Shown here one piece after another: positions 4,888 to 48,730 of a DNA stretch of 55,643 nucleotides (positions are counted from its first letter, which is position 1; each line of letters starts with the position of its first letter). The DNA lies in IMG/VR virus record IMGVR_UViG_3300032331_001807, positions 1-55,643 of that record; one strand, given 5' to 3'. Below the pieces are notes generated by a model that saw only the letters and a program-made list of their open reading frames with translations, searched no databases and was not told where the DNA came from. Origin of the DNA: a virus. The translations under genes and the position numbers were made by a program.

Positions 4888-5388
4888 TCACGCCACGAAG
4901 CGTTCAAGGTTGTCCAGAACGAAGTCTTGGTGGAAGAGGACGGCCCTGCTGAAGCTCTTGATGTCCTCGGCGTACCGCTTGAAGTCAGCGCCTTGGGTCG
5001 GACCTTCCGCCTTGTTGAGTCGTTCCGCCTTGTCGGCCTCGGACAGGATGGCCCCGAAGTACTTCTCGACGACGCCCTTGGGATTGCCCCTCCCAGCGAG
5101 GAGCGCCTTGCGAAGCGCGGCCCCGCCCCCCTCAAGGTCGATGAAGGTGGGCATCACGTCGGCCCCGCCTTTCTTGCCCAAGTAGGCGTCGAGGATCTTC
5201 ACGACCTTCGCGCCACGTTGGAGGACATCTGAATCCCGGTCGCCCGTGCTGGTGAACTCGTCGAGAAGCTCACCAAGCTCCGGGCTCACGCCCGCCGTGC
5301 GAGCGCCCAGAAGAGGCAGGAGATGCGGTCGGAGGTCGGGCTGCTGATACGCGAGCCGGATGACCTTGGAGCGAAGGGTGTTGGACAT
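4888..5388 (-). CDS. N-terminally tagged virion-type protein (166 aa)
   Basis: The first 30 residues carry the recurring tag of this genome (LRSKVIRLAYQQP then LRPHLLPLL). The remainder is soluble and helical with the segments VLQRGAKVVKILDAYL and FGAILSEADKAERL and has no known catalytic motif. Six other proteins in the window share the tag on unrelated bodies. By analogy with the capsid-targeting sequences of T4 internal head proteins, it may be packaged in the virion; that is inference. It sits oddly inside the recombination operon, between the Mre11-like gene and a metallopeptidase-like gene. Confidence 0.7.
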   Translation of the reverse strand: MSNTLRSKVIRLAYQQPDLRPHLLPLLGARTAGVSPELGELLDEFTSTGDRDSDVLQRGAKVVKILDAYLGKKGGADVMPTFIDLEGGGAALRKALLAGRGNPKGVVEKYFGAILSEADKAERLNKAEGPTQGADFKRYAEDIKSFSRAVLFHQDFVLDNLERFVA

Positions 5389-14189: not shown

Positions 14190-14957
14190 ATGTCGGATCT
14201 GAAGATCAAGCTCCTGCGTGTTGCCAACAGCCTCCCCAAGGGAGACCCCAAGCGTCGCGCCATCGCCCACCTGTTCCGCGAGGAGGAGGCCGAGACGGCC
14301 CTCCGCACCGCCGCGTCGAAGATGCCCACGGTGCTGGTGCAGGGCTACGATGGGTTCACGAACCAGATTCGTGACCTGTCGGCTGCGGAGACGCACCTCA
14401 AGACCATCCAAGCGGAGATCGACGCGGTGGCGGGCGACCTCCTCAAGCGTCTGAAGGAAGCCGACAAGACCTACAAGGACGCCGTCGAGGCGATCAAGGA
14501 CGCCTACAAGGAGAACTTGGAGGCGCAGGGCAACGTCATCATCGAGCGCAAGACCGCGCTCGTCGAGGCGCAGGCGAAGCTCAAGGTCGTGGCGGTCAAG
14601 GGCACCCTCAACTCCGTGCAGGAGCAGATGCTCGCGGCGGTGACCGAGAAGTACGGCAAGGAAGTGGCCGACTTCATCATGACCACCAACGAGTCGCTCC
14701 AAGAGCAGCACAAGTCGATGCGCGTGTCGCTCGACGGCTTCGTGCTGGAGGCCCGCGAGGCGTCCCCGAGCAAGACCGCTGCCCAGAAGCAGGCGTTCAG
14801 CATCGTGAGCGTCCTGTCGAAGTTCCGCGACTACATCAAGAACGGCTGGGACAAGATCATCCAGATCGCCAAGACGGCGACCGACGTGATCTTCGGCAGC
14901 GGCAAGAAGGTCGAGAAGGCCCACAACGAGTTCATGTCGGCGCTCAAGAGCGTCTGA
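14190..14957 (+). CDS. coiled-coil protein with virion-type N-terminal helix (255 aa)
   Basis: An isolated plus-strand gene in the minus-strand replication block. The N-terminus LKIKLLRVANSLPKGDPKRRAIAHLF is a basic amphipathic helix, similar in style to but distinct from the LRSKVIRLAHQ tag elsewhere in the window. The rest is mostly coiled coil (LKRLKEADKTYKDAVEAIKDAYKE, ERKTALVEAQAKLKVV), with a C-terminal amphipathic segment (YIKNGWDKIIQIAKTATDVIFGSG). It ends at a strong hairpin terminator. I infer a virion or internal head protein; no family was recognised. Confidence 0.75.
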   Translation: MSDLKIKLLRVANSLPKGDPKRRAIAHLFREEEAETALRTAASKMPTVLVQGYDGFTNQIRDLSAAETHLKTIQAEIDAVAGDLLKRLKEADKTYKDAVEAIKDAYKENLEAQGNVIIERKTALVEAQAKLKVVAVKGTLNSVQEQMLAAVTEKYGKEVADFIMTTNESLQEQHKSMRVSLDGFVLEAREASPSKTAAQKQAFSIVSVLSKFRDYIKNGWDKIIQIAKTATDVIFGSGKKVEKAHNEFMSALKSV

Positions 14958-20793: not shown

Positions 20794-21429
20794 CTACGGG
20801 AGCTCAACCCACTGGAGGGTCGTGGCGCTGTTCACGAAGGTGACGCCCATGTGCTCGACGCGCTTGCCGCCGTCCCTGTGGGCGTGCCCGAAGAAGTGAT
20901 GGGTCACCCTGTGCGGGCGGTAGGTGAGGGCGCTGGTGATCGGGCCGATGCCCGGGTAGAGCCCGTTGAGGATGCCGTCCGGGGGGCTGTGGGTGAGCAG
21001 CACGTCCGGGTCGCAGTCGAAGCACCGCTGCGTGAGGTCGATGAGCTCCGAGTAGGTGGCCTCCCGGTTCCACTCCCCGGCGATGAGCGGGATGTGGCCG
21101 AACCCAGCGAACTTCAGACCCCCGAAGGTGCAGCCCTCGGGGGTGACCTCGCGGGCGTCCACTCCCTCGCGGCGCAGGAGGGAGGCGAGGTGGGCGTAGT
21201 CATGGTTGCCGGGGACCAACAGCACGGGTGCGCCCAAGAGCCGTCGCCGGATGCTGAACGACTTGTAGCCGAACCAGTTGGTCTGCCAACGCACCTCGAC
21301 CTCTCGGTTGCCACGGGTCTTGTTGGGGAAGAAGTCACCCGTGAGCACCCACAGGTCCGGGGCGATCCCGTTCACCCGGTCGAAAACGTTGTAGTGGCCG
21401 TGGAGGTCCGATGCGTGTGCGACTCTCAT
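20794..21429 (-). CDS. calcineurin-like metallophosphoesterase (211 aa)
   Basis: All signature metal motifs are visible: ASDLHGHY (residues 6-13), LTGDFFP near 34, PGNHDYAHL near 74, LLTHSPPDG near 145 and FGHAHRDGG near 180. It is much shorter than the Mre11-like gene and lacks its capping domain, so it is a stand-alone phosphoesterase, perhaps for nucleotides or a host signal. It overlaps the flavin reductase gene by 4 bases (ATGA) and probably forms an operon with it and the methyltransferase fragment. Confidence 0.85.
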   Translation of the reverse strand: MRVAHASDLHGHYNVFDRVNGIAPDLWVLTGDFFPNKTRGNREVEVRWQTNWFGYKSFSIRRRLLGAPVLLVPGNHDYAHLASLLRREGVDAREVTPEGCTFGGLKFAGFGHIPLIAGEWNREATYSELIDLTQRCFDCDPDVLLTHSPPDGILNGLYPGIGPITSALTYRPHRVTHHFFGHAHRDGGKRVEHMGVTFVNSATTLQWVELP

Positions 21430-22097
21430 AGTCCCAAGGCTTCCACGAAGCGTGTGATCTGCCCCCGGCCAGCGGGTGACACGAGGTGCAGCCCGACGTG
21501 CGGGCGGTTCGATCCATCACCCTGTTCGACGTTGAGGTCGAAGGTGCGCTGCCAGACCATCTGGGCGTCGAGCGGGACGGTGAAGCCCAGCCGGATGAAC
21601 ACTTCTTGGAGGCAGATGGCGACCTTCTGGCCCTCGTAGTGCTGCCCCGCCACGAGCACCCCGGCGAGTTTCCCGGCGAGGGGGTTGGCCTCCCCGTACA
21701 CGGAGGCCCGGTTCTCCAGCGTGTTCATGCGCTCGATCACCCGCTGGAGCAGGGACGAGTGGGACATCCACCGCACGCTCGTCGCCCACAGCACCACGTC
21801 GGCGTCCGCGATCCCGTCGTAGAGGACGGGCATCTCGTCCTCACCGCCGTACTTGGCGGGGTCGTCCACGGAGTTCTTGTGCGCCCAGCAGCGGTACGGA
21901 CCCGCGTCGGGACTCGCACAGTTGCGCCCCCCGCCCGCGTAGCACGAGAGGTTCTGGACGACGTGGAGCTTCGCCGCGTCGAGGAGGGTGACATCGTGCC
22001 CACGGGAGGCGATCACCCGCAGGGATGCCTCTAGCATCATCCCGCTGGCGGACTCTTCAAGGGCGTGCGTGGTGGTCGAAATTCCAAGTACCTTCAT
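21426..22097 (-). CDS. NAD(P)H-dependent FMN reductase-like flavoprotein
   Basis: A 223-residue flavodoxin-fold protein. It starts MKVLGISTTTHALEESASGMMLEASL, the phosphate-binding loop after the first strand of NADPH-dependent FMN reductases. A cysteine-bearing stretch (CYAGGGRNCASPDAGPYRCW) resembles the iron-sulfur flavoprotein branch, and LWATSVRWMSHSSLLQRVIERM is the strand-helix around the flavin ring. It could supply reducing power for nucleotide reduction or modification; the class II reductase in the window needs thiol reductants. Substrate unknown. It overlaps both neighbours by 4 bases. Confidence 0.8.
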   Translation of the reverse strand: MKVLGISTTTHALEESASGMMLEASLRVIASRGHDVTLLDAAKLHVVQNLSCYAGGGRNCASPDAGPYRCWAHKNSVDDPAKYGGEDEMPVLYDGIADADVVLWATSVRWMSHSSLLQRVIERMNTLENRASVYGEANPLAGKLAGVLVAGQHYEGQKVAICLQEVFIRLGFTVPLDAQMVWQRTFDLNVEQGDGSNRPHVGLHLVSPAGRGQITRFVEALGL

Positions 22098-22689: not shown

Positions 22690-23991
22690 TCACAGACCCA
22701 TCATCTTGCGGTACTTCTTGTTGTACTCGCGACGCGCCGCCGAGCCGTTCGTGCCCGAGTTCGCCGTCCCGTAGCCGCTGTACATGTCCGTGTGCTCGTA
22801 GCAGCCACCCTCGCCGTCGGGGGTGCAGGGAGGCGAGCCCGGACCCGGGGCGGGGTCGTCGTAGTCCTTCGCCTTCGGCTTGTAGCCGGGACCGCCCCAC
22901 GGACGGCCCGCCATGATCTCCTCCGCGACCTGTTCCGCCGAGGGGTGCGCGTCCGCCTGCTTGAGCAGGGGCAGGAGGTGGGGACGGAGCTCCGGGCGCT
23001 GGTGGGCGAGACGGATGACCTTGTTGCGGAGGTCTCGCTCCGCTGCGGTGATGTTGCGTGCCATGATGTTCTTCCTTGCTGCCTTCCTACGAAATGCGTT
23101 GGCGAGAGCGAGAGCCTCTTGGGCGTCAGCGATGAACTTGGGGTACTGCCCGGTGTCGGACATCCTCTTGAAGTTCGCCTCCATCCACTTCTTGAACTTC
23201 CCCTTGATCGCCCCGAACTGCGGGCGACTCATGCCGATGCTATCGGCGTACTCCGTGTCCGAGATGTGCGTACCCTTCACCACCTCGTCGAAGAAGGGAC
23301 GGAACGCATCCCCCTCGTGCTTGGTGAGGGCGGCGGGGATCGCAGTGTCGTGGACCCACTCGGCGTACCCGCGACCGAACGCGCTGTTGGGGTCCTCCAT
23401 CGCGGTCTGCTCCAAGTCCGCGAGCGACGAGAACGCGAGCTCCGACTCGTCCGCCTCCATCCCAGAGGCTCCCCAGCTTTCTTGGCGCTTGCCCCGGCTC
23501 TTCTCGGAGCGGATCACGTCGATGCCCCGCTTGCGGGCGTAGGAAACCACACGGCCAGCCACGTCCCCGAGGGCCTTCTCGGGGTCGGACTTCACGGCCT
23601 CGGGGGTGAAGTGCGTCCCGGCTTGGTAGAAGAAGTTGCCCTTGCCCGAGGAGAGCCCGTTCACGAAGCTCTCTTGGAGGACCTCCTCACCCGTGCCACC
23701 CTTGCCACGCAGCATCGCGTCGATGCCCCGGACCACCGTGTCGTACACGCCCGTGTTGGGCTTCATCCACGGCGAGTGCTTCACGTCCATCGTCGGGTCG
23801 CCGTAGAGCTCCGTGAGCATCTGGGCGATGGCCCGCGTCGGGTTCCGGCCCGACAGGCTGTTGAAGGGCTTGCCGAGCACCCCTTCCAAGAACTGGGCAC
23901 GGGCCAGCATGTCGTCGCTGGCTCCCGCCTTCTTGATGCGCTGGAGGGCTGCGAGGGCCATCCCGAACTTGATGCTCGCCAGACGGTTCAT
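22690..23991 (-). CDS. sigma-70-like region protein fused to a tagged C-terminal part
   Basis: A 433-residue protein. Residues 70-190 look like a degenerate sigma region 2 (VYDTVVRGIDAML, GEEVLQESFVNGLSS, YARKRGIDVIRSEKSRGKR) and residues 240-300 hold a region-4-like helix-turn-helix (DTEYADSIGMSRPQFGAIKGKFKKW). At residue 310 an internal ATG (base 23064) with its own AGGAAG ribosome site begins MARNITAAERDLRNKVIRL, the recurring N-terminal tag, so a second 124-residue product could be made. The C-terminus is Pro/Gly-rich (PAPGPGSPPCTPDGEGG). Two overlapping products or a fusion are both possible. Its role in transcription is inferred from weak similarity. Confidence 0.5.
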   Translation of the reverse strand: MNRLASIKFGMALAALQRIKKAGASDDMLARAQFLEGVLGKPFNSLSGRNPTRAIAQMLTELYGDPTMDVKHSPWMKPNTGVYDTVVRGIDAMLRGKGGTGEEVLQESFVNGLSSGKGNFFYQAGTHFTPEAVKSDPEKALGDVAGRVVSYARKRGIDVIRSEKSRGKRQESWGASGMEADESELAFSSLADLEQTAMEDPNSAFGRGYAEWVHDTAIPAALTKHEGDAFRPFFDEVVKGTHISDTEYADSIGMSRPQFGAIKGKFKKWMEANFKRMSDTGQYPKFIADAQEALALANAFRRKAARKNIMARNITAAERDLRNKVIRLAHQRPELRPHLLPLLKQADAHPSAEQVAEEIMAGRPWGGPGYKPKAKDYDDPAPGPGSPPCTPDGEGGCYEHTDMYSGYGTANSGTNGSAARREYNKKYRKMMGL

Positions 23992-24958: not shown

Positions 24959-25132
24959 ATGAAGGTCTGGATCGTGACGGCGGGTTGGAACCGCGAAGAG
25001 ACGTGGATTCTCGGCGTGTTCGCCACGGAGCAGGGTGCCCAAGCGTTCGTGGGAACCCTCCCCGTGGACGGACGTGGCATGTTCGACGGATACGACTTCG
25101 TGCGGGTCCATGCCTACGACGTGACGCTGTGA
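24959..25132 (+). CDS. small hypothetical protein (57 aa)
   Basis: This short gene, absent from usual size cut-offs, reads MKVWIVTAGWNREETWILGV, then AFVGTLPVDGRGMFDGY and ends YDVTL. It is compact, beta-rich and begins 9 bases after a GGGCGTAA that contains the previous stop codon. Its TGA overlaps the GTG of the first FGE-core cassette. It resembles no FGE N-terminal domain, so the cassettes that follow are orphans. Confidence 0.55.
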   Translation: MKVWIVTAGWNREETWILGVFATEQGAQAFVGTLPVDGRGMFDGYDFVRVHAYDVTL

Positions 25133-25317
25133 ACAACCCCAAGCCCAAGCCCAAGCCCAAGCCCGACAACCTCCCCCGCGTGTATCGCGGCGGGTCGTGG
25201 TTCAGCACGTCCGCCACCCTCGTGCGCGCGGCTTCTCGCTACGACTTCACGTCGTCGATCCGTCACTACATCTTCGGGTTTCGCTGTGTGCTGCGGGGAA
25301 GGGAACCCCGAGTATGA
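25129..25317 (+). CDS. stand-alone FGE-sulfatase C-terminal core, cassette A (62 aa)
   Basis: A GTG start overlaps the preceding TGA. After a (KP)-repeat linker (NNPKPKPKPKPDNLP), RVYRGGSWFSTSATLVRAASR and HYIFGFRCVLRGREPRV form the complete C-terminal core of the formylglycine-generating-enzyme fold (RGGSW, R-x-A-x-R, GFRC), and nothing else. In normal proteins this core follows a GNVWEWT segment in the same chain; here it stands alone. The last 21 bases are identical to those of cassette D at 54299-54319, and the next cassette begins in the overlapping ATGA. Confidence 0.75.
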   Translation: MNNPKPKPKPKPDNLPRVYRGGSWFSTSATLVRAASRYDFTSSIRHYIFGFRCVLRGREPRV

Positions 25318-26026: not shown

Positions 26027-26560
26027 ATGCCCAGCGTCAAGAAGGTCACCCCCAAGAAGCCCGCCGCGAAGTCCTCCAAGAAGTCCTCCAAGTCCCGCAA
26101 GCCCAAGGTCTTCGGCTACGTCATTGAGGAGACGGTCTTCGACTTCAACGACGAGTACTACTCCACCTACCGGGACGATGCCGCGCAACTCGCCACCAAC
26201 CGGGTGTTCAAGGACAAGGCCGAGGCCGACGAGCTTTGCCGAAACAAGAACCGTGGCCAAGTGGACACCGTCCTCGCCTCCCCCCGTTCGTGGGCTGGGT
26301 ACGGGGAGAGCTTCGGGCAGTACCTCAACGACAACATTCACGACTCTGACGGGACCAAGTTCGTCAAGGTGTGCGACGTGCTGCTCCCCAAGAAGAAGTA
26401 CCCGGACCTCGACCGGGACGACCACAAGGCGTGCGCGGACGAGCTCGACGCCATCGTCGAGTTCGACCTCGACCTCACGGACGCCCAGAGGGACAAGCTC
26501 ATCAAGAACGGCCCGGACATCTTCTCGATCTTCCGGGTGTCGAAAGTCGAGATCGTCTAG
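26027..26560 (+). CDS. lysine-rich-headed hypothetical protein (177 aa)
   Basis: The first 30 residues are almost wholly Lys/Pro/Ser (MPSVKKVTPKKPAAKSSKKSS), a disordered tail that could bind nucleic acid. The rest is an acidic globular domain (YVIEETVFDFNDEYYSTYRDD, EFDLDLTDAQRDKLIKNGPD). The last codon region overlaps by 4 bases the end of the converging gene at 26557, sharing a CTAG. It closes the plus-strand operon that began at 24221. Function unknown. Confidence 0.7.
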   Translation: MPSVKKVTPKKPAAKSSKKSSKSRKPKVFGYVIEETVFDFNDEYYSTYRDDAAQLATNRVFKDKAEADELCRNKNRGQVDTVLASPRSWAGYGESFGQYLNDNIHDSDGTKFVKVCDVLLPKKKYPDLDRDDHKACADELDAIVEFDLDLTDAQRDKLIKNGPDIFSIFRVSKVEIV

Positions 26561-26925
26561 CTCAAGTAGGCGACGATCTCGTACTGCTCATCCCCAAGCT
26601 GGTACCACTGGAACGCCAGCGCCGAGTTGGCGATGTCCGTGGGCGAGAACGAGTCCTCGGGGTTCGTGAGGGCGAGGTCGATCACCATGCGCCCCTGCGG
26701 CTGACGCAGGGGGAAGCTCTGGATCACCTCACCCCACTCGATCCCGTGCGTGGCGAGCACCTCGCTGATGCGGGCGAGGGCCATCCCGGGCGAACGGAAC
26801 CGCCCGTTGCCGTCCATTCCGGCTTTGATGAGCGCGGCGTTGGTCGTGGTCTTGACCTTCGGGTCGAGACGGGCCGAGGCGGCGGACAGGTAACGTGCGG
26901 CGACCCTACGAGAACTCACAGGCAT
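26557..26925 (-). CDS. hypothetical virion-type protein (122 aa)
   Basis: The N-terminus MPVSSRRVAARYLSAASARLDPK is a basic amphipathic helix of the kind that begins several packaged proteins here, though it lacks the LRSKVIRLAHQ tag. The rest contains ALARISEVLATHGIEWGEVIQSFPL and YQLGDEQYEIVAYLS with no recognised motif. It converges on the plus-strand gene at 26027. Function unknown; an internal head protein is one possibility. Confidence 0.6.
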   Translation of the reverse strand: MPVSSRRVAARYLSAASARLDPKVKTTTNAALIKAGMDGNGRFRSPGMALARISEVLATHGIEWGEVIQSFPLRQPQGRMVIDLALTNPEDSFSPTDIANSALAFQWYQLGDEQYEIVAYLS

Positions 26926-27590: not shown

Positions 27591-27914
27591 CTACATCCCA
27601 ACGGACAGGTTTCGGTCTCTGAACTCGATCCAGCGGATCTCGCGAGCCGCGAGCACCTTGCGGAGGTCCTCCGGGTCCATGCGCCCCGGCAGCGTGAAAT
27701 CCACGCTGTAGCCGAAGCCTCCGAGCCAGACCATCTCGGCCTTCACCCCGAGGGTTTTCTCGATCATCTTCACCAAGTTGAGATAACTGGGCGACAGGTC
27801 GTACAGGTCGATCTCGTCCGCAGCGGTCTTGTCTCGACCGAGCAGCGGGAGAAGTTCACCCCGCAGAGCGGGTTGTTGGTGCGCGAGACGGATGAGCTTG
27901 GAACGAAGTGACAT
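27591..27914 (-). CDS. N-terminally tagged protein (107 aa)
   Basis: It starts LRSKLIRLAHQQP and LRGELLPLLG, the shared tag, then DEIDLYDLSPSYLNLVKMIEKTLG and a beta-rich end (VWLGGFGYSVDFTLPGRM). The ATG is preceded by GGAGGATCAG, a strong ribosome site. Its body shares nothing obvious with the other tagged proteins. It converges on the exonuclease gene, whose stop lies immediately next to its own. Confidence 0.75.
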   Translation of the reverse strand: MSLRSKLIRLAHQQPALRGELLPLLGRDKTAADEIDLYDLSPSYLNLVKMIEKTLGVKAEMVWLGGFGYSVDFTLPGRMDPEDLRKVLAAREIRWIEFRDRNLSVGM

Positions 27915-32303: not shown

Positions 32304-34691
32304 TCAGACCGTCTCTTCGTCGGCGGTCTCGTCGTCCGCCGTCTCGTCGTCCTGCGCCGCCATGAAGTCAGCGGCGATCTTCGCCGCCAGCCTCGACTCG
32401 ACGGTGTGGGCCTTCTTCTTCTGCGCCGGGATGGCGTCGAGCCACTCGTCCTTGGCCTTCTCGGCTTCCGCCTCCGAGCCGTGGGCCGAGTAGACGAACT
32501 TCGACGGCTTTCCGATCACGGACCAGATACCGTCGTCCTCCTCGACCACGAAGTCGGTGTCGGGCTTCGCGGGCTTCTTCTTGGATGCCGCGAGCTTGTC
32601 GATCACCATCTCGTTCGCTTCCGGGGCGACCTCCGCGAGCAGGGCGCTGTACGCGCACTTGCCCTTCTTGGCGTTCGCCGTGAGGTAGCCAGCCACCTTC
32701 ACCGGGTCCGAACCATTCCGGGCGAACAGGTCAGCGGCAATCACTCCCGCCTCGTGGTGCAGGGCGCTGCAAGCATCGAGGCCCAGCTTGGCGGTCTTCT
32801 CGCTGAAGCCGTACAGGCCGTTGCCCGACTTGCCAGCGGTCTTGCCAGCCTTGAGCGCCGCAGCGGGGCCGATGTCCTCCATCGCCTTGAGGAGCATCGA
32901 GGCGGTCTTGCTGCCCGCCTTCGCGGCGTGCTTCTGGAGGAACGCCACCGAGCCCTCGTCCTTGGCGTACAGGTTCGACGCGATGCGCTTGGCGGACTTC
33001 GCCAGCTTGTTCACGCCCGCCGTACACGCGCTCTCGGTGCTCTTCGTGAAGCCCCACTTGCCGCCAGCGGTCACGGCGGCGGTCTTGCCCTTGCCCGCTT
33101 CGTCGATGAGTTCTTCCCGGGCCTTGGCCGCGCCCTTGAACTTGGAGACGAGGTGCTTCGCCGTGGCGCTGTCGTCCGAGATGATCGCCCGGAGGTACGC
33201 CCGGTAGTGAAGGTCGTCCTCGGTCATCCCCTTGTTGGCCTTCATGAGGGCTGTGGCGACGGTCGTCCAGTCGAGGGCGGCGGTGCGGTTGAAGAACAGG
33301 TTGAACGGGACCGTGCCGTCGTCCTCACGGTGCATGACCGATTCGATGTCGGCGGTCTTGCCCTCCATGTCCTTGCGGAGCTTGACGACCGACTCTGGGG
33401 GATCTTCGTTCATCTCCTTGAACTCGGGGCCAACCACCTTGGCGACCTCGTCCACGGTCATCGACTTGCCCTTCTCAAACTTGGTCGTCTTCAGCATTTC
33501 TGCAAAGGCGTCCATCGCGATGAGGGGCTTGGCCTTCTTCTGCATCTCCTCGCGGACCTTCACCACCGACGCGGGCGGGTCTTCGTTCATCTCCTTGAAC
33601 TCGGGACCGACAACGTCAGCCACCTCGTCCACGGTCATCGACTTGCCCGCCGGGAACTTGGCCGTGCGCCCCGGGAAGTAGTCCGAAGCGTCCTGCTGGC
33701 AGTGCTCGCTGCCGGGGTCGCGGTACTTGCAGTGGATGCTCCACGCCGTCGCCCACGCCTGCCCCTCGGAGTAGTCGGGGTTCTTCTTCTTGATCTCCTC
33801 GACATCCTTCTCGACCTCCGGGGGGAGGTTGACGGCGTACTTGAGGATGCTGGCGTAGTCGCTGGCCTTCATGGATGCAGTCACTCCGTAGTCTCGACGA
33901 GTCATGAGAGGTTGGGTGAGGCTCCCGGCCTCTCGTTCGACGCTCTTCTCACGACCCCGGTCGTACCGAGACTTGTCCTTGTGGTAGCCCGCGCCGAGGC
34001 CAGCACCGGGGAGGCCCGCACGGCCCTCGTCCTTCCGGGCTTCCCACTGGACCTTGGACATGGCCTTCGCAGCGTCGGACTTCTCCGTGGGGCGGACAGG
34101 CCCGTGCTGGAGAAACCGGGCCATCCCCTTGTCCTTGAGGGACCGCCGCTCCTTCTTGCCCGCGTCGTGCTCGGATGCCATGACCTGTCTTCCTTTCGGG
34201 GTGACCTCACGCTCGATGGCCATCGCAGGGCGACGGACGAGGTACTTGGGCCACTTCTCGTACCACTTGGCGTAGAACTCGGACTTGGACACCACCCGCA
34301 CGGTCTCGTCCGGGTCGGGGATGTTGGGGTCCGCCACATGGACGTTCCACTCGTCATCCACGTCGAACACCACCGAGGCGTGCGACCACTCCCGCCCCTC
34401 GGGATTCCACGCGATGATGACGGGCGTTCCTGCGTCCGTCCACGCCTTGAGTTGCTTGAGGGTGCAGGGTGAGGTGAGGGTGCCCCGCATCCCGTAGTGC
34501 TGGGCGCAGGCAAGGGCCTGCTCCCACGTCGCCCCCTGCATCGGGCGAGCACCCATCACCCGGTTCACCTCGTCCTCGTCGCACCCGTGCCCGTGTGCTT
34601 GGAGGCACATGGACATCGACGCGGACATGCAGGTGTACTGGGTCCGCTGTCGGACGGGGGTGAGGTCAGCTTTGGCGGTCTTCGCAGCCAT
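32304..34691 (-). CDS. large protein with C39-type cysteine peptidase domain and repeats (795 aa)
   Basis: Residues 10-160 look like a peptidase C39 domain: TPVRQRTQYTCMSASMSMCL (catalytic Cys at 21), ALACAQHYGMRGTL, WSHASVVFDVDDEWNVHVADPN (His and Asp). Next is a Lys/Arg-rich stretch (SEHDAGKKERRSLKDKGMARF). The middle has a near-exact repeat of about 25 residues (KSMTVDEVA-VVGPEFKEMNEDPP, encoded at about 33410-33475 and 33588-33650). The C-terminal third has two related helical units (GKWGFTKSTESACTAG; GLYGFSEKTAKLGLDA). A virion or capsid-associated polyprotein, possibly self-processed, is the best guess. It is the longest protein after the spike. Confidence 0.6.
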   Translation of the reverse strand: MAAKTAKADLTPVRQRTQYTCMSASMSMCLQAHGHGCDEDEVNRVMGARPMQGATWEQALACAQHYGMRGTLTSPCTLKQLKAWTDAGTPVIIAWNPEGREWSHASVVFDVDDEWNVHVADPNIPDPDETVRVVSKSEFYAKWYEKWPKYLVRRPAMAIEREVTPKGRQVMASEHDAGKKERRSLKDKGMARFLQHGPVRPTEKSDAAKAMSKVQWEARKDEGRAGLPGAGLGAGYHKDKSRYDRGREKSVEREAGSLTQPLMTRRDYGVTASMKASDYASILKYAVNLPPEVEKDVEEIKKKNPDYSEGQAWATAWSIHCKYRDPGSEHCQQDASDYFPGRTAKFPAGKSMTVDEVADVVGPEFKEMNEDPPASVVKVREEMQKKAKPLIAMDAFAEMLKTTKFEKGKSMTVDEVAKVVGPEFKEMNEDPPESVVKLRKDMEGKTADIESVMHREDDGTVPFNLFFNRTAALDWTTVATALMKANKGMTEDDLHYRAYLRAIISDDSATAKHLVSKFKGAAKAREELIDEAGKGKTAAVTAGGKWGFTKSTESACTAGVNKLAKSAKRIASNLYAKDEGSVAFLQKHAAKAGSKTASMLLKAMEDIGPAAALKAGKTAGKSGNGLYGFSEKTAKLGLDACSALHHEAGVIAADLFARNGSDPVKVAGYLTANAKKGKCAYSALLAEVAPEANEMVIDKLAASKKKPAKPDTDFVVEEDDGIWSVIGKPSKFVYSAHGSEAEAEKAKDEWLDAIPAQKKKAHTVESRLAAKIAADFMAAQDDETADDETADEETV

Positions 34692-43398: not shown

Positions 43399-44085
43399 GT
43401 GCCCAAGGGTGTTCACAAGCGAGGGTTGCTGGAGCGCCCCATCCGAACCTTTGAGGCGTTCGCCGCCAACGACCGCAACATCGGCCACGACTTCTGGCTC
43501 TTCCACGGCATCAACTACCTCTCGGGCAACCCGTTCCCCGGCATCTACCGAGGGGACCAGATTTTCCGAGGGCGGATCTTCACCCACATCATGGACGCGC
43601 ACCTCGACGCGGAGGGAGCCCTCACCCCGCGAGGGCGGGAGTGCCTCGTGTGGGCCAGCACCCTCCCCCGCGAGCTCTACCGGGCGTCCGTGTACGTCAA
43701 GGCGTTCGCCCGGAAGTACAAGCGCGACCCGCTGAAGCCCGACGACCCCTACGTCGAGATGGCCATCGTCGCCGTGGCAGAACTCATGGTCGCGCCGACC
43801 AGCGGGTGGGGCCGGAAAGACCCGCCGACGGCGAGGGAGTACTACTTCCGCCCGTCTCTGCTGTACCACTGGCAGATCGCCCGCGCCGCCAAGAACGTGC
43901 TGCGCCACGACCCCCGCAGTCGCGAGGGGTGGGCGTTCTGGGCCGACCTTCATCGTCGGACCATCGAGAAGTACGGGTTGCCCCCCGGCGTCGAGCCCTT
44001 CCGGCTGGACTACAAGGAGCGGAACAACGGCGGGTACTTGGTGGGGATGGGCGACATCCGAGGCCACAAGACCAAGGTGCGCTAG
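43399..44085 (+). CDS. hypothetical protein (228 aa)
   Basis: The GTG at 43399 is chosen because the in-frame GTG at 43360 lies inside the terminator hairpin. The protein is mostly alpha-helical with many Arg and Trp residues (TFEAFAANDRNIGHDFWLFHGINYLSGNPFPGIYRGDQIF, REYYFRPSLLYHWQIARAAKNVLRHDP). No catalytic motif recognised. Its stop and that of the converging Dps-headed gene share a single CTAG. Function unknown. Confidence 0.65.
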   Translation: MPKGVHKRGLLERPIRTFEAFAANDRNIGHDFWLFHGINYLSGNPFPGIYRGDQIFRGRIFTHIMDAHLDAEGALTPRGRECLVWASTLPRELYRASVYVKAFARKYKRDPLKPDDPYVEMAIVAVAELMVAPTSGWGRKDPPTAREYYFRPSLLYHWQIARAAKNVLRHDPRSREGWAFWADLHRRTIEKYGLPPGVEPFRLDYKERNNGGYLVGMGDIRGHKTKVR

Positions 44086-45284
44086 CGGATCGCCTTGATC
44101 TGATCGTGGGTGGGGTTGAACACCACCTTGAGGCCAGCCTTGCCAGACGTAGGCGAGGTGATCGGGGTGATCTTCACCTTCACCTTGCGAGCCATATCTG
44201 CCTGCTCGCCCGAGATGGTCAGAGCGATCTCGGCGTTGGGCGTGTCGTTGCCTTGGAAGTACTCCGAGTCCATTGCGTACTGCTCCCCGTAATCGTCCGC
44301 GATGCGTTGTTCAAGTGCCTTCTCGACCGCAGCGAGGCCCGCCGCCGTGAACACCTTGTTCTGGTCGAGGACGTAGGCCACTCCACCCTTCGCCGCGTCG
44401 AACAGCGGTGCCATGTACTGGGCTACGTCGTAGGGGACCATCTTGCCCGCCGTGCCCCACGTCAACGGGACGGCCATCGCGTTCCCCTCGTACACGGGCT
44501 TGTAGCCCTTGGGTTGACGCAGTGCAGCGAAGTGGTCGGTGCTGGCCACCCTCACTCCCACCTCTTGGAATCGGGCTTTGACCGGGTCTGGTACGTCTAC
44601 TGGAGAGAGAACCTTCCACCGAAGCAGATCCCTCTCTGGGAGAGTTGTCTGCTTGGCTTTGCTGGGTTTGGTGCTGTCCACCCAGACGATGGTCACGATG
44701 TGCCCCTTGGCCGTGTTGCTCTTGGTCACCGAAGAGGGGATGAACCAGAACTCGTGCCCCGCCGCTTCGTCGGTGAACACCTTCCCCAATTGGGTCTCCA
44801 ACCACGTCTTCGCCGGGGGGAGCGCAGCGGTCTTCGCGCTCGCCGCCTTGGGGCGGTTGCGCTGACGGAGCAGGTACAGCGCCGTCTCGTGAGCGTTCGC
44901 CGTCGCCATGAGGAAGTCGTCGAGGCCGAGGGACATCTCCCCGCTGGCCTTGAGCTCGTCGTAGGCGAGCTTGAGCGCCCGCTGGAGGTGCTCCTCCATG
45001 AGCAGGGCGCACTGGTAGGGGTTGTCCCCCACGCCCGACGCCGCGTGGTTGGCGACGAACTTGTGCGTGTCCGAGAGGAGCGACAGGTTCGTGATCGCGC
45101 CCGGGCCGTAGATCCCGACGATCTTCTCGGCCAGCGTGTCGATCTCCTCGCCCACAGCCTCGTAGAGCTTCTGGAAGAGCAGGTGGTCCCCGTAGAACGG
45201 CTCGCCACGGACCTTCCAGTGGGCGGTCTGGTGCGACCACTGAAGGGCGCGGAGGATGGCGAGAAGTTGCAGCAGGATATTCAT
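44082..45284 (-). CDS. Dps/ferritin-like domain fused to a C-terminal domain (400 aa)
   Basis: The N-terminal 140 residues are a Dps-like four-helix bundle: ALQWSHQTAHWKVRGEPFYGDHLLFQKLYEAVGEEIDTLAEKIVG matches the Dps ferroxidase signature (His, His, then Asp and Glu in D-x-x-A-E-K). The C-terminal 250 residues are unrelated, with a beta-rich part (FWFIPSSVTKSNTAKGHIVTIVWVD) and an end (IALTISGEQADMARKVKVKITPITSPTSGKAGLKVVFN). Dps normally protects DNA; a fusion of this kind is unusual. In a phage it could condense packaged DNA or guard against oxidative defence. Confidence 0.65.
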   Translation of the reverse strand: MNILLQLLAILRALQWSHQTAHWKVRGEPFYGDHLLFQKLYEAVGEEIDTLAEKIVGIYGPGAITNLSLLSDTHKFVANHAASGVGDNPYQCALLMEEHLQRALKLAYDELKASGEMSLGLDDFLMATANAHETALYLLRQRNRPKAASAKTAALPPAKTWLETQLGKVFTDEAAGHEFWFIPSSVTKSNTAKGHIVTIVWVDSTKPSKAKQTTLPERDLLRWKVLSPVDVPDPVKARFQEVGVRVASTDHFAALRQPKGYKPVYEGNAMAVPLTWGTAGKMVPYDVAQYMAPLFDAAKGGVAYVLDQNKVFTAAGLAAVEKALEQRIADDYGEQYAMDSEYFQGNDTPNAEIALTISGEQADMARKVKVKITPITSPTSGKAGLKVVFNPTHDQIKAIR

Positions 45285-45299: not shown

Positions 45300-45581
45300 T
45301 CAGAGTTTGAGGATGTACTTCGCGTAAATGCGGTCGATCTCCTCGTCGGTGGCGTCTTCCAGCACTACGGTGTTGTAACCCTCGACGGCGAGCATGATCT
45401 TGTGCTTCCCGCCACGGACCATCCCATCACCGATCCCTTTGAACCTCTTGAAGATCTCGGCAACCTTCTTCTTTCGGTCCGCAGGGGGCATAGCCGCTTC
45501 CTTCAGGAGAGGGAGAAGGTGGGGGCGGAACTCTGGGCGCTGGTGCGCGAGCCGGATGACCTTGGAACGAAGAGTGCTCAT
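45300..45581 (-). CDS. N-terminally tagged protein (93 aa)
   Basis: It starts LRSKVIRLAHQRPEFRP and HLLPLLKEAAMPP. The body (DRKKKVAEIFKRFKGIGDG, YNTVVLEDATDEEIDRIYAKYILKL) is small and mixed alpha/beta. The ATG lies in GAGCAT context with no clear SD. It is the first of four tagged genes in a row on the minus strand between 45.3 and 48.8 kb. Confidence 0.75.
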   Translation of the reverse strand: MSTLRSKVIRLAHQRPEFRPHLLPLLKEAAMPPADRKKKVAEIFKRFKGIGDGMVRGGKHKIMLAVEGYNTVVLEDATDEEIDRIYAKYILKL

Positions 45582-45596
45582 GTGTTGGGTTTCTTC

Positions 45597-46415
45597 TCAG
45601 CGCAGGACGGATTTGAGGTAGTCGAACCACACGTCGTCCCGCGCCCACTGGGTTGCTTGGCTGTCAATCGCGTCGAGGTCCACGCCCTTGGACTTGACGT
45701 AGGCGTCCACGGCGTCGAGGTTGAGGAGCTTCTCGTAGAGCTTTCCCGTGACGTAGGACTTCATCTGCCGCTCGACGGGAAATCCACCGGGGTCTGCCTT
45801 GAAGCCCAACGGGGTCGCACCCCGCTCCACATCCCGAACCGCCCGGTCCATCACGGGGCGGACCTTCGTGTCGAAGTACTCTCGCACGAGGGCGTCCACG
45901 TCACGCTGGGCGTTGGTCTTGGTCTCCTCGACCCACTGCTCCAGCGCACGGGTGTGGGCATCCTCTTGGGCGCGCATCGCCGTCTCGATGGCCCGGAACT
46001 GGGCACCCGACACACGGTTGAGCTCGCCCTTCTTGTCGAGCTTCACGAGGAGGGCGGTCTGGGACTTGGCCGACCCATACTCCTTCTCGTTGCCGTCCGA
46101 CACCCGCCACATGGCCAGAACTTGATGGTCCGTGTCGTAGGCCCAGAGGTACTTCCACGGGTCGTCGGGTCGAACGTGGATGATGCGAGCCCCTTCCTCG
46201 GCCTCCTCGGGGAGCTCCATGAGGTCGCCCATCAGCCCGCCAGAATGGGTGGACAGGACGTACTTGTCGCCCGCGAGGGTCACCGTGTGCGGGTTGCGCG
46301 GCGCGCGGCCCACGAACGGGATCACGTCCCCCGCCGTCTTGAGGAGGGGCAGGAGGAGAGGACGGAGACCGGGCTGGGCATGGGCGAGGCGGATGACCTT
46401 GGATCGCAGGTTCAC
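45597..46415 (-). CDS. N-terminally tagged protein (272 aa)
   Basis: The tag reads LRSKVIRLAHAQP and LRPLLLPLLKTAGDV. The body has a beta-rich part (VTLAGDKYVLSTHSGGLMGDLMELP, RIIHVRPDDPWKYLWAYDTDHQVLAMWRVSDG) and a long alpha-helical C-terminal (AIETAMRAQEDAHTRALEQWVEETKTNAQRDVDALVREYF). No enzyme motif is obvious. The stop lies two dozen bases before the next tagged gene. Probable virion protein by tag. Confidence 0.7.
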   Translation of the reverse strand: MNLRSKVIRLAHAQPGLRPLLLPLLKTAGDVIPFVGRAPRNPHTVTLAGDKYVLSTHSGGLMGDLMELPEEAEEGARIIHVRPDDPWKYLWAYDTDHQVLAMWRVSDGNEKEYGSAKSQTALLVKLDKKGELNRVSGAQFRAIETAMRAQEDAHTRALEQWVEETKTNAQRDVDALVREYFDTKVRPVMDRAVRDVERGATPLGFKADPGGFPVERQMKSYVTGKLYEKLLNLDAVDAYVKSKGVDLDAIDSQATQWARDDVWFDYLKSVLR

Positions 46416-46428
46416 GGGAGGAGCTCCT

Positions 46429-47337
46429 TCAGCGCCCGTAGAGGCGGTTTTGCTTCTCGTAGAAGCTCTGCTGGTCCTTCGGGCTCAAGCCCTTGAGGTA
46501 GGCCATGTAGCGGGCGATCCCCACCTTCGCGTCCTGCTCGCCGTCTTGCGTGAGGTCTTCGTAGTCGTAGTGACTGCCCACCCAATCCGCGAGCTCACGC
46601 TGGCTCATCTCCGAGAACACGGCAGACACCACGGGCTCGGGACGACTCGGGAGTTCCCGCACCACGTCGCCCATCCACCTGTCTTGGATCGCGTGGTACT
46701 CGGGAACCGGGATCTGCCACGCCTTCTTCGACGGGTTCCACTTCCACCCGTACTTCTTCATGACCGCGACGAACGGGTAGGTGTTGCCGCTCACGGTCAC
46801 TGTGCCCTCGGTCACGTCGTAGCGACCGGGGTAGGTGTGCTCGACCTTGAGCCCCGCCGCCTCCAGCTTGGGCTGCATCCGTTCAAGCCGCTGCCAGTGC
46901 TCGACGACCTCGCGGTCGTCACCGCCACCACCGGGACGGACCCCACGGTTGAACGCCTCTGCCGCCTCGTTGTGCTTCTTGGCGAGGGCTTGCACCACCG
47001 GGAAGGCAGCTTCTTGGAGCTTGCGGTTCTTGTAGAACTCCGCGTTGCGCCGCCCGCCGTACTTGTACAGCGTCGCGTCGATGCTCCAAACCTTGCTGGC
47101 TGAGTTCCAACGGAAGCCCAGACGCTTGAGCTCGTCACGGTAGTCGAACGTCGGCCCAGCGACATCCAGCACCCAAGAGTCTTCCACGGGGTCGGTCCCG
47201 CCGAAGTCCCCAAGGTTGACGTACTTCACCCGGATGAGTTCTTGGGTGACGCGCGCCGCCTTGAGGAGAGGGAGAAGCTGCGGACGGAGAGACGGCTGCT
47301 GGTGGGCCAGACGGATGAGACGGGTGCGGAGGGTCAT
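46429..47337 (-). CDS. N-terminally tagged protein with DUF5710-like repeats (302 aa)
   Basis: Tag LRTRLIRLAHQQP and LRPQLLPLLKAARV. The body has two copies of the pattern in which a strand is followed by K-x-x-G-x-x-W-N-x-x-x-K-x-W-x-I/V: ELKRLGFRWNSASKVWSIDA and VMKKYGWKWNPSKKAWQIPV, as in DUF5710-like domains. A lysine-rich helical part lies between. The 37-bp DNA of the tag region (47254-47290) is identical to that in the gene at 48368. No enzymatic role is known for this domain. Confidence 0.7.
   Translation of the reverse strand: MTLRTRLIRLAHQQPSLRPQLLPLLKAARVTQELIRVKYVNLGDFGGTDPVEDSWVLDVAGPTFDYRDELKRLGFRWNSASKVWSIDATLYKYGGRRNAEFYKNRKLQEAAFPVVQALAKKHNEAAEAFNRGVRPGGGGDDREVVEHWQRLERMQPKLEAAGLKVEHTYPGRYDVTEGTVTVSGNTYPFVAVMKKYGWKWNPSKKAWQIPVPEYHAIQDRWMGDVVRELPSRPEPVVSAVFSEMSQRELADWVGSHYDYEDLTQDGEQDAKVGIARYMAYLKGLSPKDQQSFYEKQNRLYGR
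47254..47290. repeat. 37-bp exact repeat in tag-coding region, copy 1
   Basis: It begins CGCCGCCTTGAGG and ends GCGGACGGAGA and is identical to 48644-48680. It encodes part of the shared N-terminal tag, so the tag is conserved at DNA level and not only in protein. Possible evidence of cassette exchange. Confidence 0.85.
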
Positions 47338-47368
47338 ACCCCCTGCCGGGAATAGACTCTCTACCGGG

Positions 47369-47857
47369 TCACGAGCTCCGGGTCATGGCCCGGGAGTAGT
47401 CCCAAGTGAGCTCCTCGCCAGCTTTGATGCTCCGCATGGCGCGGAACTCGATGGCCGAGAGACCCTGCCGAAGCACACACACGAGGTTGGGTTCCCGCCC
47501 CGTCGTGTCGAAGCGGTCGAAGTTATAGAGGAGCCCCTCGCCAGAAATGATGCACCGCTTCCCGTTCACCCACGGGAACAGGTAGCGGTTCACCGTCGGC
47601 ATGGAGAGGGACTGGAGGGACTCGTCCTCGGGCAACGGCATCACCCAGCACCGCTCGACGGTCACGCCACGCTCGATGTCGTCACGGGCGAACACGCCCC
47701 TGCCACGCTCCCGGCTGATCCACCGGGCGATGATCGGCCACCCGCCCGGAGGTTCCGGCTTCGCCGCCTTGAGGCAATCACCACAGACGAACGCCGCTTT
47801 GTGTTGCCAGTCGTTGGTGGGTGTCGGGCTTTTCAACCCGCAGTCGGGGCAGATCAT
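47369..47857 (-). CDS. SET-domain protein lysine methyltransferase-like (162 aa)
   Basis: An N-terminal zinc ribbon (CPDC at residues 3-6 and CGDC at 25-28) precedes a compact SET domain: RGRGVFARDDIERGVTVE (residues 51-68, AdoMet-binding GxG), LLYNFDRFDTTGREPNLV (residues 109-125, the N-x-x-x-x-P-N knot in a variant form), and AIEFRAMRSIKAGEELTWDYS (residues 136-155, with the catalytic Tyr). Enzymes of this fold methylate lysine. In a phage, it might modify host or virion proteins. Start from ATG at 47857; overlaps the upstream gene by 4 bases. Confidence 0.85.
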   Translation of the reverse strand: MICPDCGLKSPTPTNDWQHKAAFVCGDCLKAAKPEPPGGWPIIARWISRERGRGVFARDDIERGVTVERCWVMPLPEDESLQSLSMPTVNRYLFPWVNGKRCIISGEGLLYNFDRFDTTGREPNLVCVLRQGLSAIEFRAMRSIKAGEELTWDYSRAMTRSS

Positions 47858-48039
47858 AGCTTCCTTCCCAAGACGTGCAGCATCTTGGCTTGCTGGGAGT
47901 CGAGCCTTCGACCCTCACGGAGCGTCTCACGGAGCTTCTGATACTGGACGTGGTCCTCGGGCGGTAGGGAAGCCAGACGCTTCTCGATCCGATCCAACCA
48001 CCGCTCTGCCTTCTCGTTGGAGAACTTGATCTCGGGCAT
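47854..48039 (-). CDS. small basic coiled-coil protein (61 aa)
   Basis: MPEIKFSNEKAERWLDRIEKRLASL and HVQYQKLRETLREGRRLDSQQAKMLHVLGRKL: a helical hairpin rich in Arg and Lys. The TGA overlaps the ATG of the SET gene (ATGA), so the two are translated together. It may be a partner or substrate of the SET protein, by context only. Confidence 0.65.
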   Translation of the reverse strand: MPEIKFSNEKAERWLDRIEKRLASLPPEDHVQYQKLRETLREGRRLDSQQAKMLHVLGRKL

Positions 48040-48040
48040 C

Positions 48041-48319
48041 CTACGGGTGAGGCTCCTTCAGCAGGGCTACCGTACCGACGCGCACCTCACCCCTCGGCAC
48101 CCACTCCCGAATGAACAGGGCCACGAGCTTCCCGTCGGGACGGGCAAGGTGACCGACGCACCCGGACATCATCGTGGCGATGTTCCGGGTCCGCACGAGC
48201 TCCTCGCCCAGCACGTTCCGAAGGTGATCGTTGTAGTCCTCGGGATGGACGACGACGGTCGTACACCCAGAGACGGTAGGGATGAGCCCCCGCAGGAAGT
48301 CCGCGAACTTGGTATCCAT
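48041..48319 (-). CDS. hypothetical protein (92 aa)
   Basis: A mixed alpha/beta protein: LIPTVSGCTTVVVHPEDYNDHLRNVLGEELVR and MMSGCVGHLARPDGKLVALFIREWVPRGEVRVG. No motif recognised. One base separates it from the next gene. In the same transcription unit as the SET gene. Confidence 0.6.
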   Translation of the reverse strand: MDTKFADFLRGLIPTVSGCTTVVVHPEDYNDHLRNVLGEELVRTRNIATMMSGCVGHLARPDGKLVALFIREWVPRGEVRVGTVALLKEPHP

Positions 48320-48367
48320 CTCTCGTCCTCGGTGGGCGAGTTACCGTTCACCGATGAGAGCGTCGGA

Positions 48368-48730
48368 TCACTTGGCGTTGTGGACCGCCGAGATCACCGA
48401 AGCGATGAGATCGTCGTGGAACAGTTCGGCGCTCCCCCCGCTGAAGAACTTGTTGAACTTGCCGCTCTCCCAAAGGGCCTTCTTTACCAAGGCCGCGACA
48501 TTTCGCGACGTGTCCTCCACGATCCCTTGGAGGTCGTTGCTCGCGTTGTCGAGGTTCTCTTGGGCCTCTTCCATGTCCTCCTCGGACGCGGGCACCTTGT
48601 CGAACTCCAGAAGGTACGGGTTGAGCTCTTCGCCCAGATTGCCCGCCGCCTTGAGGAGAGGGAGAAGCTGCGGACGGAGATGCGGCTGCTGGTGAGCCAG
48701 CCGAATGAGGGAGGATCGCAGGGAGCTCAT
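48368..48730 (-). CDS. N-terminally tagged protein (120 aa)
   Basis: Tag LRSSLIRLAHQQP and LRPQLLPLLKAAGNL. The body is alpha-helical and acidic (EEDMEEAQENLDNASNDLQGIVEDTSRNVAALVKKAL) and ends FFSGGSAELFHDDLIASVISAVHNAK. The ATG at 48730 has an AGGGAG ribosome site nearby; a longer upstream frame (to 48835) is rejected because the tag should be at the N-terminus. Part of the tagged cluster. Confidence 0.75.
   Translation of the reverse strand: MSSLRSSLIRLAHQQPHLRPQLLPLLKAAGNLGEELNPYLLEFDKVPASEEDMEEAQENLDNASNDLQGIVEDTSRNVAALVKKALWESGKFNKFFSGGSAELFHDDLIASVISAVHNAK
48644..48680. repeat. 37-bp exact repeat in tag-coding region, copy 2
   Basis: Identical to 47254-47290. Downstream codons also match closely (CGGCTGCTGGTG shared), so gene conversion or recent duplication of the tag segment is likely. 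Confidence 0.85.

Follow-up and report, generated by a model that had tools for sequence, protein, structure and literature searches.

Seven otherwise unrelated proteins in the 55,643-bp linear virus record IMGVR_UViG_3300032331_001807 from IMG/VR (here "the window", the whole stretch of DNA analyzed, also G000; G and L numbers are our handles for records and loci) share a peptide of 24–27 residues, which we call the LRP tag (consensus TLRSK[LV]IRLAHQxPxLRPxLLPLLKxA). On balance, we favor the reading that LRP is a modular docking tag, and that the proteins bearing it are a capsid-bound payload of huge tailed phages with a near-invariant major capsid protein (MCP). Judging from sequence comparisons, this group of huge phages apparently uses at least four equivalent terminal tags, namely LRP, LPxG, RVA, and RIARLE, with 10–20 unrelated tagged proteins in each genome. 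The searches described below collected 214 non-redundant LRP copies from dozens of phage contigs and revealed that relatives of the tagged proteins can have another tag in its place.

The LRP tag in the window

When both strands of the window were translated, the pattern LR-x-[KRS]-[VL]-I-R-L-A-[HY]-x-x-P-x-[LF]-R-x-x-L-L-P-L-L was present at exactly the seven genes named in the original prediction, all on the minus strand, and at the DNA level a degenerate pattern for the tag gave seven exact matches compared to none in 100 dinucleotide shuffles. Six of these tags begin 1–3 residues past an ATG or GTG, while the seventh is internal, at about residue 320 of a 433-residue protein (22690–23991). 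The mean peptide identity among the seven copies is 78% over 23 conserved codons; among their identical residues, 53% of codon pairs are synonymously different, close to the 55% expected under independent codon choice. Saturated codon choice at this level of peptide identity indicates purifying selection on the LRP peptide itself, and it rules out recent duplication as the cause of the similarity between the tags, even though two copies (47254 and 48644) have a near-identical, recent-looking 3' half in common. Across a first set of 72 distinct tags, residues L2, A10, P14, R17, and P22 are invariant.

The tag falls within no family of Pfam or PHROG, a sequence search of the PDB gave no match, and a text search of a collection of papers found no occurrence of the tag strings. 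Low-confidence AlphaFold models of two tagged proteins each depict the tag as two short helices adjoining disordered sequence; in the 272-residue protein 45597–46415 these helices span residues 3–13 and 15–26 and are followed by a disordered linker. Structure searches with the two models returned nothing significant. For the protein with the internal tag, sigma factors recur among weak Foldseek matches (E-values of 0.27 and worse), and we tentatively consider it sigma-factor-like. A folded domain common to all tagged proteins was ruled out, as unrelated domains follow the tag, the tag is exchanged between relatives, and it is modeled as a separate hairpin ahead of a disordered linker.

Distribution and placement of LRP copies

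A scan for relatives identified 19 further loci, whole-record searches found 10–15 tags each in G001, G002, G004, and LR745208.1 (an uncultured phage of 485 kb), and a wider DNA pattern matched at least 117 stretches in IMG/VR, including contigs of 199–497 kb. Most of these records are fragments, and genes beyond the supplied open reading frame lists were called by a simple script. Among 84,980 bacterial and archaeal genomes the pattern occurred in only two metagenome bins, one of which is from Actinomycetota and has its matches on five short contigs that are probably phage sequence included in the bin; the tag was not found in plasmids, and a plasmid or host origin was thus ruled out. A tblastn search of 50,697 phage records (E ≤ 10) had LR745208.1 as its sole match and identified no cultured phage.

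The 214 non-redundant copies, counted among the matches listed, are on more than 100 unrelated proteins, with ~163 copies N-terminal, ~21 C-terminal, and 28 internal. The expectation that the tag always lies at a start codon therefore fits six of the seven copies in the window but not the tag in general. Some proteins have a tag at each end, and among these are short proteins whose middle part is of low complexity (Table 1). We also observed a second module, F[PS]TExAxKKYLKEHPxADxSKHTV, directly after the tag and before different domains in 11 places (L208, L147, L175, L168, L209, L237, L256).

Tagged proteins are variable accessory proteins

Behind the tag, the proteins fall into many unrelated families, as originally proposed. 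Most LRP-tagged proteins are 90–400 residues long with at most one recognized domain, and the domains include RNA ligase, 2H-SAK phosphoesterase, RelA/SpoT-like, DUF2958, DUF3846, DUF5710, and DUF7007, as well as pentapeptide repeats, ParBc_2 (ParB-like), ART-PolyVal, and a weak match to a SAM-lyase. The ART-PolyVal ADP-ribosyltransferase has an LRP tag in L208 and L226 and an RVA tag in LR745208. PADLOC gave no match. With the tags masked, none of 44 tagged genes was present in at least four of the five genomes compared, as against 13.5 ± 2.7 for length-matched untagged genes, and the core replication and nucleotide enzymes have no LRP tag. Beside the tag cluster in the window, a Dps-like protein of 400 residues (44085–45284, minus strand) has a C-terminal domain that recurs between tag and cargo in G002 (20796–21917), an instance of domain shuffling next to a tag.

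Tags are exchanged at the same site

When cargo proteins were compared with the tag masked, relatives were found to carry other terminal motifs at the same site, and in 12 cargo families LRP was swapped for RVA or LPxG. The LPxG tag (LIRLASxLPxGSxxRRAIL) is present on several neighboring genes in L175, and 29 stretches in viral contigs have it. The RVA tag (xRVAxR[YFH]L) occurs 66 times in 1,766 genes, at termini and domain junctions; as it is a 7-residue pattern, some of these matches are due to chance (2.35 expected by shuffling). Examples of exchange include a 288-residue protein that has LRP in L207 (2413–3276) and LPxG in G003 (116467), with 54% identity, and a pair at 49% identity with LRP in L217 (4379) and RVA in L176 (1780). 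All three tags occur at one internal junction of the sigma-like protein: LRP in the window, G001, G002, and LR745208, RVA in L196 of the 252-kb G004, and LPxG in L287 and L284. That tags replace each other at the same cargo site marks them as modular, exchangeable docking tags. The first helix follows the same pattern in LRP and LPxG, R..LIRLA...P (58% identity over 12 columns; pairwise P = 1.7e-4), so the two may represent diverged versions of a single hairpin, while RVA is much shorter than either.

The MCP of these phages is highly conserved, with 89–100% identity to that of G001 in the best 80 of 502 loci; this conservation is unusual in that the MCP loci (L289–L368) come from phages whose genomes range from 38 to 65% in guanine-plus-cytosine content and reach 618 kb in size. 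Nine of 19 large records picked by MCP similarity have LRP. Two others, G028 (375 kb) and G033 (312 kb), each examined over 200 kb (tiles L375–L394), have no LRP but have MRRSASEIIRNLEMRIARLERQAS-like N-termini on ~21 and ~11 proteins, respectively, in addition to RVA. This fourth tag, RIARLE (consensus MRRSASEIIRxLExRIARLERQ), is mostly situated 11 residues past the start codon and had no match in cultured phages. We saw no cargo family in which RIARLE was swapped for another tag, and its presumed equivalence to the others is based on its position and repetition. As LRP and RIARLE differ between capsid-related phages and RVA is present in both, the main tag is lineage-specific and RVA is shared.

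Relationship to the phage head

The head module of G001 comprises genes for the terminase (83362), portal (87138), head maturation protease (94836–96242), an acidic protein that occupies the place of a scaffold (96314–97840, with a net charge of −51), and the MCP (98757), with the protease and major head protein identified by PHROG. Over six genomes, the head module contains more RVA proteins than expected (22 versus 8.9, 0 of 10,000 draws), among them one with Topo IB and one with HAD-SAK. Several LRP-tagged genes also adjoin head genes: just after the portal gene in G004 (152515) and L188 (5777), between the scaffold and MCP genes in LR745208 (398174), and downstream of the MCP gene in L166, L176, L207, and L261. 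The prohead as destination is supported by these positions, by the head-module enrichment of RVA together with its interchange with LRP, and by the presence of LRP or RVA on ART-PolyVal, which is of the polyvalent class proposed to be injected. The small double-ended proteins with a low-complexity middle would suit a linker of the core or scaffold.

Based on these results, we propose that the tag is a helix-turn-helix of ~26 residues, added at the N-terminus, the C-terminus, or a domain junction of variable accessory proteins, and that it would bind an assembly platform built by the phage, for which the acidic scaffold or core of the prohead is the most likely candidate. The tagged payload would then be enclosed with the DNA in the head and reach the next host by ejection, as with the internal proteins of T4. 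A sorting or docking tag common to many cargo proteins, as originally suggested, is strongly supported, since the tag is modular, can be swapped at the same site, and is on accessory cargo only. Its proposed capsid targeting is the best-fitting destination, for which the evidence is circumstantial.

Several observations weigh against a capsid destination. LRP genes themselves show no excess in the head module (6 versus 9.1 expected), and phages with the same capsid (MCPs 89–94% identical) use different main tags, so that a receptor on the capsid side would have to differ between lineages. Most of the cargo is without recognized function, and all tag-bearing phages are uncultured. PF03420 (T4-type prohead protease) and PF07068 (capsid) were unmatched in 17 records, although the controls were unmatched as well, and no uniform protease site follows the tag. 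With respect to the latter, E is at tag position 26 in 26 of the 72 distinct tags, and [LI]xE is found near the tag end in 51% of tags versus 22% of control windows, a difference confounded by the Leu-rich end of the tag. Cleavage of the tag, given as an example in the original prediction, may occur, although the C-terminal, internal, and double-ended copies argue against a simple cleaved leader.

The tripeptide R-[VIL]-A is present in all four tags, and head-module proteins have more [RK][VLI]A than expected (290 versus 147; outside the module, 560 versus 473). This tripeptide, common to tags and head proteins, is a lead to a possible receptor or protease recognition element. In G001 (87138, 94836, 96314, 98757; L062–L063), [RK][VIL]A recurs in the scaffold as well as in the N-terminal tails of the portal, the protease, and the MCP. 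We considered whether one protease might cut head proteins and tags alike at R-[VIL]-A and retain this as a lead only, as the KLAASM part of the MCP may be structural. The head maturation protease gene of G002 (L083, 98098–100824), and probably that of G003 (44539), has an intein-like insertion at an SMGC site.

Alternative explanations

A conserved peptide that is exchangeable, is on unrelated accessory proteins, and can be at either end or between domains points to a docking or sorting module with a common partner, and the alternatives differ mainly in what that partner would be. The tags could sort proteins not to the virion but to another phage-built intracellular site, such as a replication compartment, a condensate, or a membrane-anchored factory; this would account for modular, exchangeable tags, for cargo that suits intracellular takeover, and for the spread of LRP genes over the genome rather than in the head block. 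We regard it as unlikely, because RVA, which can stand in for LRP on a given cargo, is over-represented among head-module proteins, LRP is missing from the core enzymes of replication and nucleotide metabolism, and PhuZ/tubulin (PF00091) was absent from eight records while 13 control genomes matched, a result that ruled out phage-nucleus import of the Chimallivirus type. We consider it a little less probable still that the tag docks its carriers, as clients or regulators, onto one enzyme or chaperone, e.g., the phage GroEL, an RNA polymerase, or a protease adaptor. The internal tag of the sigma-like protein, the GroEL and Dps-like genes adjoining the tag cluster in the window, and the suitability of a predicted two-helix tag for groove binding are in keeping with such a role; however, the cargo has no common theme pointing to a single machine, double-ended and C-terminal tags fit a structural lattice better, and no single partner gene was found.

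The two other alternatives are both very improbable. The helices are basic, Leu-rich, amphipathic, and close to the N-terminus, as would be those of a membrane-targeting helix or a secretion-like leader, but a generic amphipathic helix has no need of the invariant A10, P14, R17, and P22, copies exist at C-termini and internally, and the sequence-unrelated RVA replaces LRP. Likewise, the tag might be a functionless residue of evolution, left by a leader cassette that moved between genes or by genes that duplicated recently, which the two window copies with a near-identical 3' half and the recombination of cargo domains beside the tag would suit; against this, the peptide is conserved while its synonymous sites are saturated, and the tag recurs in deeply diverged genomes, where it is swapped for other tags rather than lost.

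A more general reading, to which we give about equal weight for and against, is a phage-encoded zip-code system with exchangeable tags, of which the main one is lineage-specific (LRP, LPxG, or RIARLE) and RVA is shared, and a distinct phage-built destination, be it the prohead core or an undescribed compartment. If this is correct, the list of tagged genes of any such genome would be a readout of its delivered payload. Were the tags to serve as packaging labels, the host-takeover and counter-defense payload of uncultured huge phages, many proteins in each lineage, could be read from sequence, which otherwise requires virion proteomics, and the exchangeable tags would provide a means of loading cargo through either terminus or an internal site; if the destination is another compartment, the tags would represent a new intracellular sorting system in phages.

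Tagged features and other genes

Table 1. Positions of tags in the window and of double-ended tagged proteins in other loci.
Feature	Locus	Position	Strand	Protein and remarks
LRP tag	Window	5302–5376	−	N-terminus of 166-aa protein 4888–5388; homologous tagged protein in contig G009
Internal LRP tag	Window	22954–23031	−	433-aa protein 22690–23991, tentatively sigma-factor-like; junction in relatives has LRP, RVA, or LPxG
LRP tag	Window	27840–27911	−	N-terminus of protein 27591–27914
LRP tag	Window	45495–45572	−	N-terminus of 93-aa protein 45300–45581; family also in G001, G002
LRP tag	Window	46332–46409	−	N-terminus of 272-aa protein 45597–46415
LRP tag	Window	47254–47331	−	N-terminus of 302-aa protein 46429–47337; weak DUF5710 match
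LRP tag	Window	48644–48724	−	N-terminus of 120-aa protein 48368–48730; family also in G001, G002
LPxG-type variant N-terminal tag (MSDLKIKLLRVANSLPKGDPKRRAIAHLF)	Window	14190–14954	+	255-aa protein
RVA-type N-terminal tag (VSSRRVAARYLSA)	Window	26557–26919	−	120-aa protein
Double-ended tagged protein	L168	3822–4166		115 aa
Double-ended tagged protein	L219	1525–1923		133 aa
Double-ended tagged protein	L195	22–360		113 aa

Elsewhere in the window, 32307–34691 (minus strand) encodes a conserved protein of 795 residues with an N-terminal C39-like peptidase domain. Very short open reading frames resembling fragments of formylglycine-generating-enzyme-like domains (xVxRGGSW...AASR) are present many times per genome, e.g., at 25129–25314 (plus strand) in the window, at 65801–66553 in G001, and over 12–27 kb in G006.

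Comparison with known systems

The diverse internal proteins of T4 have only the capsid targeting sequence (CTS) in common (PMC3012670). Like LRP, the CTS is a short conserved peptide on unrelated, highly variable accessory proteins, several of which are tagged per genome, and the packaged T4 proteins include counter-defense proteins and the ADP-ribosyltransferase Alt, an activity also represented among the tagged cargo here. LRP nevertheless belongs to another sequence family, is a predicted helical hairpin of ~26 residues that may be N-terminal, C-terminal, or internal, and is accompanied by other tags to make at least four, three of which are exchanged on the same cargo; it lacks a uniform [LI]xE site, and packaging of the proteins that bear it is a proposal. 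By analogy, we infer that LRP works like the T4 CTS without belonging to its sequence family, with the prohead as the likeliest destination.

The propeptides of the very large phages phiKZ and SPN3US are likewise N-terminal extensions on head and ejected proteins. Those of SPN3US are removed after AxE, and eight of its nine substrates have N-terminal propeptides of 20–254 residues (PMC10052503), whereas the tag described here is one shared short peptide without an AxE-type site. The cargo also overlaps in domains (ART-PolyVal, ParB-like) with the polyvalent proteins of phages and plasmids (Iyer et al. 2017), for which ART-PolyVal was named; these are thought to be injected with phage DNA, and the prototype of the domain is T4 Alt, a packaged ADP-ribosyltransferase (PMC5512222). 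The tagged proteins differ from them in being mostly small, single-domain, and united by a terminal peptide rather than by a multi-domain architecture, although the RVA-tagged Topo IB protein of G001 (89815) is closer to the polyvalent multi-domain type.

Outside of phages, bacterial microcompartments and encapsulins take up cargo into a protein shell by means of encapsulation peptides, short amphipathic helices that may be N-terminal, C-terminal, or interdomain; their placement resembles that of the tags and their cargo recruitment the role proposed for the tags, and their sequences are unrelated.

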